DNA of 64,000 nucleotides from Anaerolineales bacterium (GTDB lineage: Bacteria; Chloroflexota; Anaerolineae; Anaerolineales; Villigracilaceae). The stretch covers positions 1-64,000 of the forward strand of contig JAFGCG010000010.1 in NCBI GenBank assembly GCA_016932715.1, in the 5' to 3' direction. Positions 17,082 through 62,120 of the stretch are shown in pieces. The notes below the pieces were generated by a model. That model did not search any database, had not been told where the DNA came from, and worked only from the letters and a program-made list of their open reading frames with translations. The number at the start of each line of letters is the position of its first letter. Position 1 is the stretch's first letter. The position numbers and the translations under genes are program-made.

Positions 17082-17119
17082 TTCACTGAATACTGTCCAC
17101 TGACTACTGGTTACTGTAA
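17082..17119. repeat. Micro-repeat overlapping the gcvPB stop codon
   Basis: Degenerate CAGTAnCCAGT-type units are present. On the minus strand they encode the last residues YSNQ of gcvPB and its TAG stop, then continue downstream. Confidence 0.7.
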
Positions 17120-18654
17120 TCCTCCGGCAGCCCGCAGCACAGCACCAACTCTCTCGCCGCCTTGACCTCATCCATCCTGCCGAAGCGCGTGGTGCTCGGA
17201 GCGTTGTGGAGCAGGTCGGGCTGGGTTTTGGCTTCCTCCGCGATCTTGATCAGCGCGTCGGTGAAGGCATCGAGCGTGTCCTTGTTCTCGGTCTCGGTCG
17301 GCTCGATCATCAGCGCTTCATGGACGATGAGTGGGAAGTAGTTTGTGGGTGGGTGGAAGTTGTAATCGATCAGGCGCTTGGCGATGTCCAGCGCGCGCAC
17401 ATCGGAACCTTCGAAACGCCCTTCCGCGACAAATTCGTGCATGCAGATGCGGTCGAACGGAACACGATAAGTATCGCGCAATCTTGCGAGAAGATAATTC
17501 GCGTTCAGCACGGCGTACTGCGAAATATCCTTGAGCCCGTCGGGTCCGTGCATGGCAATGTAGGTGAAGGCGCGCACGAAGCCGCCGCCGAAATGACCGT
17601 GGAAGGCTTTCATACGCCCAATGGATTTGGCGGGTTTGAGGAAGCCATACAGCGGAGCCGTGTCATCGTCGCCTTCTTCGATCATGCCGACGAGCGGCTC
17701 CGGCAAAAAGTCCGCCAAGCGCGCCGCGACGCCGACGGGGCCGACACCCGGTCCGCCGCCGCCGTGTGGGACGGAGAAGGTCTTGTGCAGGTTGAAGTGC
17801 ATCACGTCGAAGCCCAGGTCGCCCGGGCGGACGATGCCAAGCAGGGCATTGAGGTTCGCGCCGTCGCCGTACATCAAGCCGCCGCAGCCGTGCACCAGCT
17901 CGATGACCTTCTCGATGTTCTCATCGAAGAGACCGAGCGTGTTCGGGTTGGTAAGCATCATGCCGACGACGGTATTGTCACAGGCGGCTTCGAGGGCTTT
18001 GAGGTCCACGTTGCCGCGCTCGTCCGACGGGACTTGTACCACCTGCAGTCCCATCATGCCGACCGAGGCGGGATTGGTCCCATGTGCGGAATCGGGGATG
18101 ATCATCTTCACGCGCTTCGTGTCGCCGCGTGACTTGTGGTAGGCGCGCATCATCAGCACGCCGGTAAACTCGCCGTGCGCGCCCGCAGCAGGCTGCAGGG
18201 TCACTGCCGCATAGCCGCCGATCTCCTTCAACCATTCCTGCAGGGTGTACATCAGGAGCAAATTACCCTGCACCGTTTCAATCGGCTGCAAGGGATGAGT
18301 GTGTAAAAATCCCGGAAGGCGACACGTGTCTTCGTTGATCTTCGGGTTGTACTTCATCGTACACGAGCCGAGTGGATAGAAGCCGCTGTCCACGCTGTAG
18401 TTGAAGCTGCTGAGATGCATGTAGTGCCGGACCACATCCACTTCGGCGAGCTCGGGCAGGGGCAGGTCCGAGCGCAGAAGCTCCCTGGGAGGCAGAGTCG
18501 TTTCCGGGACGTCTGGATCGGGCATCGTCACGCCAATTCGCCCGGGGGAGGACAGGTCGAAGACCGTCGGTTCCACTATTTTCGCGCTGAGCGGAGGAAC
18601 AGGTCCTGAACCTGTCGAAGGACGATGTTTCGCAGTCGAAGCGGCGTTAACCAT
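17104..18654 (-). CDS. gcvPB: Glycine dehydrogenase (decarboxylating) subunit 2
   Basis: This is the PLP-binding half of split P-protein of the glycine cleavage system, which decarboxylates glycine and passes aminomethyl to lipoyl-GcvH. The PLP lysine is in NLHKTFSVPHGGGGPG, and family landmarks include LGSCTMKYNPK and TLQPAAGAHGEFTG. At 516 residues it has a slightly long N-terminus. Residues about 11-23 (RPSTGSGPVPPLS) are the translation of a dispersed palindrome (18594-18624). The C-terminus and stop codon fall in a micro-repeat. The start overlaps gcvPA by 8 bases. Confidence 0.96.
   Translation of the reverse strand: MVNAASTAKHRPSTGSGPVPPLSAKIVEPTVFDLSSPGRIGVTMPDPDVPETTLPPRELLRSDLPLPELAEVDVVRHYMHLSSFNYSVDSGFYPLGSCTMKYNPKINEDTCRLPGFLHTHPLQPIETVQGNLLLMYTLQEWLKEIGGYAAVTLQPAAGAHGEFTGVLMMRAYHKSRGDTKRVKMIIPDSAHGTNPASVGMMGLQVVQVPSDERGNVDLKALEAACDNTVVGMMLTNPNTLGLFDENIEKVIELVHGCGGLMYGDGANLNALLGIVRPGDLGFDVMHFNLHKTFSVPHGGGGPGVGPVGVAARLADFLPEPLVGMIEEGDDDTAPLYGFLKPAKSIGRMKAFHGHFGGGFVRAFTYIAMHGPDGLKDISQYAVLNANYLLARLRDTYRVPFDRICMHEFVAEGRFEGSDVRALDIAKRLIDYNFHPPTNYFPLIVHEALMIEPTETENKDTLDAFTDALIKIAEEAKTQPDLLHNAPSTTRFGRMDEVKAARELVLCCGLPEDYSNQ
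18594..18624. repeat. In-frame palindrome at the gcvPB N-terminus
   Basis: ACAGGTCCTGAACCTGT followed by CGAAGGAC belongs to a dispersed CTTCGACAGG-TTCAGGACCTGT repeat class. It adds about ten residues (PSTGSGPV) to a poorly conserved N-terminal tail. Confidence 0.7.
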
Positions 18655-20002
18655 GGCTCACCTCCGATAAAATATTCACCAGCATATCGATATCTTCCTT
18701 GCTGTTCATCTCGGTCACGGCGATCAGCATGTGATCCTTGAGGGCAGGATAATCCTGCCCGAGATCGTATCCGCCGAGGATGCCGTGATCGAGCAGATGG
18801 GCATTGACCTCCGCGACGGGGCGATTGAGGCACAATGCGAACTCGTGGAAGAACGGCTCGCTGAAACACAGTCCCATGCCGTCGATCTGGCTGAGCTGCT
18901 GCGCGGCGTAGTGTGCCTTTTGGTAACAAAGTTCGGCGACCTGCCGCAAACCTTTTTTGCCGAGCAGCGAAAGATAAACAGCCGTTCCGAGGGCGATCAA
19001 GCCCTGATTGGTGCAGATGTTGGACGTGGCGCGCTCACGCTTGATGTGCTGCTCGCGGGCGGTCAGTGTCAGGACGTAGGAGCGCTGCCCGCGATTGTCG
19101 ACGGTCTCGCCGACCAGGCGGCCCGCCATCTTGTGGACGAAACTCCTGCGGGTCGTGAAAAAGCCGACGCTGGGTCCGCCGTACCACATCGGGATGCCCA
19201 GCGGCTGCCCGTCGCCGACGACGATGTCCGCGCCCAGGGAGCCGGGTGTCTTGAACAGCGCCAGGGCCGTGGGATTGGCAACGATGCAGACCAGCGCCCC
19301 TTTGGCGTGCGCGGCTTCGATCAGCTTGGCGTAATCGTAGACGCGCCCGAAGAAGTCGGGATACTGAACGACGAGCAGGGATGTATTCTCGTCGATCAGG
19401 GTTGCCAGTTCATCGGGCTGCGAGTCGAGGTCGGTATTTGGATTGTCGCCCGCGAGTTCCATGTCCGTGCCCTGGATGTAGGTGCGGATGACGGCGCGAT
19501 ACTGTGGGTGGACGGCAGGAGAGACGACGACTTTCCTGCGCTTGCCGCGGAACTGTGCGTACGCCAGGTTGACCGCTTCGGCGGTGGCTGTCGCGCCGTC
19601 GTAATGCGAAGCGTTGCAGACCTCCATGCCGGTGAGCGCAGCCATCAGGGATTGATACTCGAAGATTGCCTGTAATGTGCCCTGTGAGATTTCCGGCTGG
19701 TAAGGAGTATAGGCTGTGTAGAACTCGCCGCGCCGCAGGATGTGATCCACCACCGAGGGGATATAGTGGTTATACATACCCGCGCCCAGGAAGGAGACCA
19801 GGTCACTGCGCACGTTCTCATTGGCTTGCGCGAGACCAGATAACTCCTCCATGGCTTCCATTTCGGTCAGCGCGGGAGGCAGGTTTAGCATTGGGAAGCG
19901 GTGTCTGGCGGGGACAGCCTCGAACAAGTCGTCCAGCGACTTGACACCGACAGTCTCCAGCATCGCATCCCGTTCTTTGGGGCTGATGGGGATATAAGAC
20001 AT
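18647..20002 (-). CDS. gcvPA: Glycine dehydrogenase (decarboxylating) subunit 1
   Basis: This is the first half of the split P-protein, 451 residues, the usual length. It begins MSYIPISPKERDAML. Conserved segments include FLGAGMYNHYIPSVVDHIL, YTPYQPEISQGTLQAIFE and ASHYDGATATAEAV. It forms an alpha2beta2 complex with GcvPB. It lies 69 nt downstream of gcvH, a gap that contains a perfect 23-bp inverted repeat, and overlaps gcvPB. The glycine riboswitch upstream of gcvH should control it. Confidence 0.97.
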   Translation of the reverse strand: MSYIPISPKERDAMLETVGVKSLDDLFEAVPARHRFPMLNLPPALTEMEAMEELSGLAQANENVRSDLVSFLGAGMYNHYIPSVVDHILRRGEFYTAYTPYQPEISQGTLQAIFEYQSLMAALTGMEVCNASHYDGATATAEAVNLAYAQFRGKRRKVVVSPAVHPQYRAVIRTYIQGTDMELAGDNPNTDLDSQPDELATLIDENTSLLVVQYPDFFGRVYDYAKLIEAAHAKGALVCIVANPTALALFKTPGSLGADIVVGDGQPLGIPMWYGGPSVGFFTTRRSFVHKMAGRLVGETVDNRGQRSYVLTLTAREQHIKRERATSNICTNQGLIALGTAVYLSLLGKKGLRQVAELCYQKAHYAAQQLSQIDGMGLCFSEPFFHEFALCLNRPVAEVNAHLLDHGILGGYDLGQDYPALKDHMLIAVTEMNSKEDIDMLVNILSEVSHG

Positions 20003-20015
20003 AATTTGCCTTTCG

Positions 20016-20064
20016 ATGTCGTTGCGAGAAGTGACGCCAAAGGCGTCACTTCTCGCAACGACAT
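20016..20064. repeat. Perfect 23-bp inverted repeat between gcvH and gcvPA
   Basis: The arms start ATGTCGTTGCGAGAAGTG and are separated by 3 nt. Ends are the ATGTCGTTGCGAG class also seen at 60406-60487 and, with TCATTGCGAGG ends, at 41209-41326. In the transcript it would fold into a very stable hairpin 13 nt before the gcvPA start and could block its translation or protect the upstream gcvH message. Confidence 0.85.
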
Positions 20065-20071
20065 GGGTAGT

Positions 20072-20449
20072 CTAGTGCGACCGTTCCTCACAATGTTTTT
20101 CATATGCGGCGGAGTCCAGGGTTTCGCCGGCCGCGCCGCCCTCCACTTTGACCATCCAGCCTGCGCCGTAGGGATCGGAGTTGAGGGTCTCGGGCTTGTC
20201 GGAAAGGCCCTTGTTGACGGCGGTCACTTTCCCGCCCGCGGGGGCGTAGATCTCCGCCGAGGCTTTGACCGATTCGACCGAGGCAATCGCTTTGCCAGCC
20301 TCGATGGTGTCGCCTTCCTCGACCAGGATCTCCACGAAGACGATGTCGGAGAGCTGGGACTGGGCGTAGTCGCTGATGCCCATCGCGCCGGTCGCGGGGT
20401 CGAACCACTCGTCGGACTTTGTGTATTTCAGATTGGCAGGTGCGTTCAT
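20072..20449 (-). CDS. gcvH: Glycine cleavage system H protein
   Basis: This is the lipoyl carrier of the glycine cleavage system, 125 residues, the usual size. The lipoylated lysine is in VESVKASAEIYAP (residue about 63). AAAGGAG stands 8 nt before the ATG. It is the first gene after the tandem glycine riboswitch and is followed by gcvPA and gcvPB. The T-protein and lipoamide dehydrogenase genes are not in the window. Confidence 0.96.
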   Translation of the reverse strand: MNAPANLKYTKSDEWFDPATGAMGISDYAQSQLSDIVFVEILVEEGDTIEAGKAIASVESVKASAEIYAPAGGKVTAVNKGLSDKPETLNSDPYGAGWMVKVEGGAAGETLDSAAYEKHCEERSH

Positions 20450-20474
20450 GAGGTTTTGCTCCTTTAGAGATTTT

Positions 20475-20524
20475 GGAGTCCGACAGCTTGCTGTCGAAAT
20501 TTCAGGAGCAAGCTCCTGGACTCC
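20475..20524. repeat. Three-way-junction palindrome upstream of gcvH
   Basis: The outer arms GGAGTCC/GGACTCC enclose two hairpins, AGGAGCTTGCTCCT and CGACAGCAAGCTGTCG. The same plan (outer stem, two inner hairpins) is seen at 20806-20855 and 29895-29957. It sits in the gcvH leader between riboswitch and ribosome-binding site. Confidence 0.75.
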
Positions 20525-20546
20525 ATAAGATGCTGGCGATTAAACG

Positions 20547-20575
20547 TAAAAGGCGCACGAGTACGATCGCGCGCC
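20547..20575 (-). terminator. Candidate terminator of the glycine riboswitch
   Basis: On the minus strand GGCGCGCG pairs with CGTGCGCC (one G-U) and is followed by TTTT. It starts within the last bases of aptamer II and may be the expression platform. The U-tract is short. Confidence 0.55.
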
Positions 20576-20603
20576 TCTGTTATTGGACCTGAGAGATTCG
20601 TTT

Positions 20604-20685
20604 AGTCGCCTGGTTGTCTGGTTGTATGGTCTTGTAGTCCTGACTCCTTGACCACATGACCATGTGACTAACAGACTAGCTGACC
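20604..20685. repeat. Inverted micro-repeat array in aptamer II of the riboswitch
   Basis: The degenerate units GGTTGTCTGGTTGTATGG and TTGACCACATGACCATGTG are arranged as two inverted halves, so they can pair. They replace the loop of the P3 arm between TTTGGTC and GACTAAA. Confidence 0.8.
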
Positions 20686-20805
20686 AAATTTACACCGTCG
20701 GTATCCCTGAAAGGGATTTTCCAGAGTTTTTTGGGGACAGGGTCCTTTTGCCTGAGAGTTTCATCTGGTTTCGCCTGTTCCAGACTTGCACCTTCGGCGC
20801 TCACC

Positions 20806-20855
20806 GTAGTAGCGACTTCAGTCGCTCAGGTTTGGACGACTAAAGTCGTCACTAC
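20806..20855. repeat. Three-way-junction palindrome in aptamer I of the riboswitch
   Basis: The outer arms GTAGTAGC and GTCACTAC enclose two hairpins, GCGACTTCAGTCGC and GACGACTAAAGTCGTC. It forms the end of the P2 arm of aptamer I. Confidence 0.8.
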
Positions 20856-20894
20856 TTTGAGACTCTTCCCTGCTACCCATTTAATTGTAATTCC

Positions 20895-20923
20895 ATTGTA
20901 TGGTTGACGGGAATGAGAGTCAA
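20895..20923 (-). promoter_or_regulatory. Sigma-70-type promoter of the gcv operon
   Basis: On the minus strand TTGACT and TACAAT are separated by exactly 17 nt. The predicted start near 20888 is about 10 nt before the first riboswitch aptamer. Confidence 0.75.
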
Positions 20924-61675: not shown

Positions 61676-61681
61676 CCCTGC

Positions 61682-61759
61682 TGTAGGATAACAGTAAGTT
61701 CGTATTGGAAGTACAAATGCCAACAACTCACAGTTTGATCCGTGAGTTGTTTTGTTTTG
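61682..61759 (+). ncRNA. Candidate short leader RNA upstream of csp
   Basis: The interval runs from a predicted promoter to an intrinsic terminator and contains no open frame. A small hairpin CTGTAGGATAACAG is at its start. It could be an attenuated leader of the csp message or an independent small RNA. Confidence 0.4.
61722..61759 (+). terminator. Terminator-like hairpin in the csp leader
   Basis: A perfect 10-bp stem AACAACTCAC/GTGAGTTGTT with a 10-nt loop is followed by TTTGTTTT. It lies 60 nt before csp with no gene to terminate upstream on this strand, so attenuation is likely. Confidence 0.7.
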
Positions 61760-61820
61760 CCCTCCGATGGAACTAAACAGAACACCTAATTATTACAAAT
61801 TGCCAAAGGAGGCAAATACA

Positions 61821-62036
61821 ATGTCTGAACGTATAATTGGTACGGTCAAGTGGTTCAACGGTGATAAAGGCTTCGGCTTTATCGAGCGCGAAGGTGGCAA
61901 GGACGTTTTCGTCCATTTCTCTGCCATTCAAAGTGATGGCGGATATCGCAACCTGCAAGAGGGCCAGAAGGTCGAGTTCACTGTTGAACAAGGCCCCAAG
62001 GGACCCCAGGCAAGCAACGTCACAATCCCCCGGTAA
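61821..62036 (+). CDS. Cold-shock domain protein
   Basis: The 71-residue single CSD protein has RNP1 KGFGFIERE and RNP2 [10 protein letters not shown]. It binds single-stranded RNA/DNA and melts RNA structure. AAAGGAGG precedes the start at 61821. The upstream leader has a terminator-like hairpin that cold or CspA-type antitermination could regulate (inference). A strong terminator follows. Confidence 0.95.
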
Positions 62037-62048
62037 CTAAGTAAGACT

Positions 62049-62081
62049 AAAAAGAGCCCTGCGTTTTCGCGGGGCTCTTTT
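62049..62081 (+). terminator. Intrinsic terminator after csp
   Basis: AAAAGAGCCCTGCG/CGCGGGGCTCTTTT forms a long GC-rich stem with a U-tract and may work in both directions. Confidence 0.85.
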
Positions 62082-62120
62082 GATTCTCGGGCAGGCGTTC
62101 AATATTGTGCGATTGCTTTC

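Follow-up and report, generated by a model that had tools for sequence, protein, structure and literature searches.

Dispersed folding repeats in the variable arms of a tandem glycine riboswitch of Anaerolineales: evidence for repeated arm exchange

Introduction

How does a conserved regulatory RNA come to carry dispersed, mobile-looking repeats inside its aptamers, and why would such repeats persist there? This question is raised by the leader of the gcv operon on contig JAFGCG010000010.1 of an Anaerolineales bacterium (GenBank assembly GCA_016932715.1; genome G000 below), of which we analyzed a stretch of 64,000 nucleotides (the window). An earlier note on this DNA had proposed that a tandem glycine riboswitch carries two different repeats, one in the P2 arm of aptamer I (P2-I) and one in the P3 arm of aptamer II (P3-II), and that these persist because they fold. 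Our comparison of leader sequences leads us to suggest, with a probability of about 0.8, that an ON-type riboswitch controls the gcv operon and that the tips of P2-I, P2-II, and P3-II have been swapped, under selection, for dispersed repeats that fold.

Results

Riboswitch, expression platform, and operon

The tandem riboswitch with intact cores was borne out: a search of the whole genome with the Rfam model RF00504 placed aptamer I at 20871 to 20739 (40.3 bits) and aptamer II at 20734 to 20567 (35.7 bits), both above the gathering cut-off of 32 bits. In two cmscan runs, aptamer I alone was listed and aptamer II was absent, and the model of aptamer I left a 50-nt stretch in P2 unmodelled. The leader and the genes downstream of it are made up as follows.

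20895 to 20923, minus strand: predicted sigma-70-like promoter, TTGACT-17-TACAAT (consensus scan, 10 of 12 positions), upstream of the riboswitch
20730 to 20880, minus strand: aptamer I of the glycine riboswitch (RF00504, 49.3 bits, E 4.3e-7, cmscan of the window)
20567 to 20734, minus strand: aptamer II of the glycine riboswitch (RF00504, 35.7 bits, own-genome search)
20548 to 20578, minus strand: intrinsic-terminator-like hairpin followed by a T run (-19.7 kcal/mol folded alone)
20474 to 20525, minus strand: another palindrome pair, in which TGGAGTCC and GGACTCCA flank two hairpins, located 3′ of the terminator and 5′ of gcvH
20072 to 20449, minus strand: gcvH, glycine cleavage H protein (PF01597, E 3.5e-31)
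18647 to 20002, minus strand: gcvPA, glycine dehydrogenase subunit 1 (PF02347, E 1e-133)
17104 to 18654, minus strand: gcvPB, glycine dehydrogenase subunit 2 (PF21478 and PF02347)

The riboswitch therefore lies upstream of glycine cleavage genes, and 3′ of aptamer II an expression platform can be recognized, from sequence alone, in a terminator hairpin that overlaps P1 of aptamer II (P1-II). The motif AGAG is common to the 5′ side of the terminator and the 3′ strand of P1-II (20575 to 20579), and because both structures use it they are mutually exclusive, which would be the usual design of a ligand-ON switch. By stabilizing P1-II, glycine would tie up the nucleotides that the 3′ strand of P1-II has in common with the 5′ strand of the terminator; the terminator could then not form, so that gcvH-gcvPA-gcvPB would be read. 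A consensus terminator scan that needs five T in eight positions did not pick this hairpin. Among 80 relatives of GcvH, the 27 nearest are from Chloroflexota or Anaerolineae. Elsewhere among the own-genome loci examined, one element resembling the TGGAGTCC..GGACTCCA pair was found, and there is a related one in the leader of genome G017.

A dispersed GTAG-tagged pair in P2 of aptamer I

20806 to 20855, minus strand: GTAG-tagged inverted palindrome pair in the loop of P2-I, arranged GTAG-hairpin-spacer-hairpin-CTAC

Below this pair, a short basal stem of P2-I is kept. As in the definition of GTAG-tagged repeats in PMC3733652, GTAG stands at one end of a palindrome of 5 to 13 bp, here in the form GTAG-T-GACGACTTTAGTCGTC with an inverted partner. 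The element is dispersed in many copies, the half-element pattern GTAGTNRCGRYTNNARYCG having 41 matches in the own genome against 0 for a reversed control. BLASTN with positions 20800 to 20861 likewise gave 41 rows for the own genome, among which the query, both strands, and in some places both halves are counted, and an exact 22-nt stretch of the arm was found at nine other places in the genome. Within the window, the riboswitch pair is the sole copy.

The earlier note had read this arm as a dispersed palindrome folding into a three-way junction; the palindrome and its dispersal stand, but the junction, while possible, is not the main predicted RNA fold, at -16.1 kcal/mol versus -27.3 kcal/mol for one long imperfect hairpin.

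In its tag, short palindromic stem, dimer form, and dispersal, the pair is like the GTAG-tagged REP families known from Chloroflexi (PMC3733652), and it differs from them in its location inside a riboswitch aptamer and in that no link to a RAYT gene was found; the word "riboswitch" is absent from the main text of that paper. No GTAG half-element was present in the loci of six Y1_Tnp matches (five over the cut-off; about 1.5 kb on each side, one locus being cut by a contig end), which were taken together, whether RAYT or not. We therefore do not file the pair as RAYT-mobilised, and movement by RAYT is rejected for now.

Some GTAG copies are embedded in longer mobile-looking elements with similar inverted ends. 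At loci L012, L013 to L020, and L031, the same GTAG pair, with a longer spacer, lies at the center of a larger element, which in L012 measures 127 bp. The ends of these elements are like TTCAGTAAATCACAGATTCAG, and several contigs of this assembly end inside such copies.

An inverted array of 8-nt units in P3 of aptamer II

20601 to 20688, minus strand: inverted array of 8-nt units (TRGTY plus 3 variable nt) making up the P3-II arm

The inverted micro-repeat array that had been proposed for P3-II was likewise recovered. It consists of two inverted halves, each unit having five conserved nucleotides (TRGTY) and three variable ones, and a pattern of four units, (TRGTYNNN)x3+TRGTY, gave 116 overlapping matches in the own genome versus 1 in the control. 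BLASTN of the arm found three weak partial matches elsewhere in the own genome and no others, because the 3-nt spacers vary. The idea that mobile-looking repeats occupy two arms thus holds as far as dispersal goes, for both of them, but the Y1_Tnp loci gave no support for a known transposase as the mover of the GTAG pair.

Short tandem repeats (STRR) were reportedly described in cyanobacterial RNase P RNA by Vioque in 1997. STRR are tandem heptamers in direct orientation. The array described here resembles them as a set of short tandem repeats within an RNA gene, but with its 8-nt period, inverted halves, and three variable positions it falls outside a class of direct-orientation heptamers.

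Leaders of related genomes

RF00504 had matches in 54 of 61 related genomes and in 131 of 150 family genomes; the two sets overlap, both include G000, and 14 of the 131 matched genomes were not fetched. Leaders were read at 140 loci, 123 of which fit a strict anatomical expression and gave 106 distinct leaders after 17 parsed duplicates were dropped; 17 loci failed this expression, 10 of them being parsed with a looser one and 7 not. Since the strict expression requires the core motifs, their conservation proves nothing here, and information comes only from how long the parts between them are and what they contain.

Among the 106 leaders, P2-I measures 6 to 125 nt, P3-II 29 to 161 nt, and P2-II 12 to 38 nt. 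The length of P3-I is 36 to 43 nt in 101 leaders, and the stretch between the cores (the linker) spans 23 to 28 nt in all 106 and 21 to 29 nt in the ten loci parsed with the looser expression. A terminator-like hairpin of at least 6 bp plus TTT is present in 101 leaders, and CAGAG follows 3′ of the aptamer II core in 105. As far as these orthologous sequences indicate, the comparison shows the linker, the terminator, and P3-I to be constrained in length and the tips of P2-I, P2-II, and P3-II not to be. Short arms are found as well, such as a P2-I of 13 nt in G018 and G025 and a P3-II of 29 nt in G006, G130, G150, and G162.

In G004 and G013 there is no riboswitch, and these genomes are uninformative on riboswitch loss, since gcvH was not found in either assembly. 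In G032 gcvH is present, and the stretch of the locus that was read is coding sequence. In G133 (L287), only the 5′ part of aptamer I is left, running straight into the start region of gcvH; without aptamer II and the terminator, which have been lost, gcvH may be constitutive in this genome.

Arrays across relatives and the question of need

P3-II arrays occur in 39 of the 106 distinct leaders, and for this reason the array in G000 need not be a recent insertion. In predicted folds of the 39 arms, with 122 units, pentamer positions are paired in 80 to 99% and spacer positions in 33 to 46%, and 35 of the 39 arms fold better than shuffled sequences at z < -2 (median z, -3.9). An array in P3-I was seen in one leader among the 106, that of G023 (L088), where the P3 arms of both aptamers are long inverted arrays of 8-nt units.

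Sixteen genomes with an array in the arm have 5 to 190 further array matches each, whereas 10 of 20 genomes without one have none genome-wide. An array in the arm went with a higher genomic array count (Mann-Whitney p = 8e-6), relatedness among the 36 genomes being uncorrected, the genomes being of our own choice, and G014 and G035, which the strict expression missed, being set to "no array" by eye. On a tree of GcvH plus GcvPA (99 rows, 98 of them different; 41 of 95 inner branches below 80), presence of the array in P3-II changes 20 times. The threshold for presence was three unit pairs, at which G001 and G034 count as without an array while carrying recognizable units, and part of the 20 changes may, as in these two, be decay below the threshold.

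It is conceivable that such arms are adaptive, in that long stable arms make folding faster, cause the polymerase to pause, or shield the leader from nucleases, and that repeats are recruited as ready hairpins. The keeping of a P3-II array in more than a third of the leaders and the stability of these arms relative to shuffles are in line with this, and the over-representation of repeats in the riboswitch loops, described below, would follow from it. Many leaders, however, are short-armed, and in half of the genomes whose arm lacks an array the four-unit pattern has no match at all, as would be expected from supply rather than need. We consider adaptive recruitment quite unlikely and favor the swapping of tips for whatever dispersed repeats fold.

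Repeat families in the arms

GTAG elements lie in P2-I of five genomes, as pairs in G000, G010, G012, and G082 and as one half in G132, and these genomes have 12 to 41 GTAG half-elements each against 0 to 3 in controls. In the P2-I arm of G082 (L271), the second GTAG palindrome is interrupted by another hairpin, a nested insertion.

Palindromes of the form CAGTTGAACTG occupy P2-I of G009, G017, and G075 and P2-II of G010, G014, and G017; they were counted in leaders with two positions relaxed, and the P2-II arm of L140, which has one base changed, matches only under this relaxation. G009, G010, G014, G017, and G075 hold 12 to 51 copies of CAGTTGAACTG versus 2 to 4 in controls, and of the other 21 genomes searched, G004, G012, and G013 are rich (25 to 33 copies) and the rest have 0 to 7. 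With 33 copies in its genome, G012 nevertheless has only a variant of CAGTTGAACTG in P2-II, and repeat supply alone therefore does not decide the content of an arm.

A third family, repeat C (GGTYGAGTA..GTAYCGARACC), is found in P2-I of G015, G081, G168, and G170 (the last by a looser pattern), and in P3-II of G086; in P2-I of G120 and G167 it is turned the other way round. Copies number 22 to 94 in G015, G081, G086, G168, and G170, and repeat C is present in 24 of 26 genomes searched, controls having 0 throughout. The sets of 26 genomes used for the GTAG, CAGTTGAACTG, and repeat C counts were chosen by us and include genomes known to carry arm repeats. Two further candidate families seen in arms are AGACCTGACATGTCT, in G014 and L140, and TGCAGACTTCAGTCTGCA, in G157, of which G128 has a close variant.

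Unrelated arms in otherwise similar leaders

Several pairs of leaders are alike except in their arms. G012 and G017 are identical in P3-I (39 of 39) and in the linker (24 of 24), and their terminator regions agree at 31 of 59 positions (unaligned), whereas P2-I is occupied by a GTAG pair in G012 and by an unrelated CAGTTGAACTG palindrome in G017. G153 and G154, identical in P3-I (40 of 40) and in the terminator region (59 of 59), likewise have unrelated P2-I arms. The pairs G140/G170 and G095/G086 are alike elsewhere and differ by the presence of repeat C, and G171 and G167, which agree in the inner part of P3-I (33 of 33) and in P3-II (53 of 55), have a plain P2-I and repeat C, respectively.

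Because repeat C is tolerated either way round and near-identical leaders carry unrelated arms, the sequence of the arm itself seems not to matter, which agrees with the earlier proposal that only pairing counts in these arms. Comparison of orthologous gcv leaders, which that proposal had called for, revealed other arms at the same places. With both arms dispersed, the cores intact, and other arms in the orthologues, neither of the outcomes that the earlier note had named as contrary to it was found, namely a covariance model that fails to place both aptamers or arms that are ancient conserved sequence found nowhere else in the genome.

That the arms are nonetheless ancient riboswitch sequence, with the dispersed copies as unrelated look-alikes, is highly improbable. 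The wide spread of P3-II arrays in the family would fit such an origin, but it is already contradicted by the 41-to-0 count of the GTAG pattern, by the exact copies of the 22-nt stretch of P2-I, several of them inside longer mobile-looking elements, and by the leaders that are alike elsewhere and carry unrelated arms. The exchange of tips for dispersed repeats remains our preferred reading.

The five GTAG cases correspond to five changes on the GcvH plus GcvPA tree; since its inner branches are often weak, a single insertion may account for both G010 and G012, and the changes may be four. In all five cases the element faces the same way with respect to transcription, the GTAGTGACGA half leading. 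The uniform direction points to common descent or to some directional process and away from neutral insertions that arose independently.

Over-representation of GTAG pairs in riboswitch loops

Among 16 genomes of the genus, 3 of about 88 GTAG pairs lie in riboswitch loops (2 events, should G010 and G012 have a common one), where uniform insertion would lead us to expect 0.01 to 0.1 (Poisson, with an assumed permissive length of 35 to 350 kb, an assumed loop of 40 nt, and half-elements divided by two). This excess may reflect a preference at insertion, selective retention, or the loss of copies at other sites; it fits repeats that persist by folding, and it fits an insertion hot spot too.

Under such a hot spot, repeats would prefer hairpin-forming DNA, the stem-loops of the riboswitch would be targets, and selection would play a minor part. 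Apart from the excess itself, the report that GTAG-23 repeats of T. roseum lie inside small palindromes (PMC3733652) speaks for this. Among 14 GTAG pairs of the own genome with both flanks, the riboswitch copy included, the flanks were however no more complementary than shuffled ones (mean stem, 3.64 versus 3.93), giving no support for a preference of these pairs for small palindromes, and several unrelated repeat families occupy the same loops. We regard a hot spot as unlikely and return to selection on the leader as the more probable filter.

Discussion

Our results lead us to propose that the cores, P1, the linker, and the terminator are under purifying selection, while the tips of P2-I, P2-II, and P3-II would be free as long as an insert closes on itself. 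In this lineage the tips have repeatedly given way to self-complementary sequences that are dispersed in the same genome, namely GTAG elements, 8-nt arrays, repeat C, and CAGTTGAACTG palindromes. A self-folding insert would survive purifying selection because the junction below it is left undisturbed, and inserts that fail to fold, or that lie at other sites in the aptamer, would be removed. It is possible, and we put this forward tentatively, that the loops are a preferred site of retention for palindromic repeats, every insert that folds being kept because it caps P2 or P3 harmlessly or even to advantage, such that arms swap with the repeat pool of the genome and the orientation and family of an insert record the repeat history of the lineage.

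Palindromic and tandem repeats in structured RNAs are known already. Rickettsia palindromic elements sit in tmRNA and in RNase P RNA (M1) (PMC2229807) and, like the elements described here, are dispersed palindromes inside conserved structured RNA genes. They differ in that one element type in two housekeeping RNAs is concerned, and the available excerpts of that source mention neither an exchange of families at the same loops nor a riboswitch. Upstream of the pneumococcal trp operon, a BOX element lies between two T boxes (PMC3049150), which is also a repeat element in a composite riboswitch leader, but one placed between two riboswitches and not in an aptamer arm. In Neisseria gonorrhoeae, the second aptamer of the gcvT glycine riboswitch has a P3 loop of 73 nt, and the genes of this switch are glycine responsive in vivo (PMC13104608). 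It is likewise a tandem glycine riboswitch with an enlarged P3 arm in aptamer II, which in that bacterium does not prevent function; it differs in being translational, and excerpts of that paper do not describe its extra sequence as a dispersed repeat.

In the available text of a conservation study of glycine riboswitches (PMC6944388), the terms "insertion" and "Chloroflex" are absent. Our search found no paper that joins "glycine riboswitch" with "repetitive extragenic palindromic", and among the matches listed, judged by titles and the starts of abstracts and with few subscription journals covered, there was none on dispersed repeats swapped in riboswitch arms. What is new against the literature searched is the repeated exchange of riboswitch arms, which did not appear there.

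The leaders amount to an insertion scan made by nature, in which about 100 orthologues show that the loops of P2-I, P2-II, and P3-II take up tens of bases, while the length of the linker hardly changes, nor, with a few exceptions, does that of P3-I. By having unlike arms on otherwise similar leaders, the pairs described above offer concrete material for testing how insertions affect the response to the ligand. Dispersed palindromes may moreover be a source of new arms for regulatory RNAs, which comes near a question that PMC2229807, in the excerpts available, left for future studies.

Some minor observations concern the surroundings of the leader. Weak Rfam matches to RNA-OUT, CRISPR-DR5, STnc310, and Lacto-phage-1 in the region are under the cut-off and were taken as chance. 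Between gcvH and gcvPA, at window positions 20016 to 20064, there is an inverted repeat of 23 pairs around AAA, and at 61676 to 62082 of the window a match to the cspA thermoregulator is over its cut-off at 101.4 bits.
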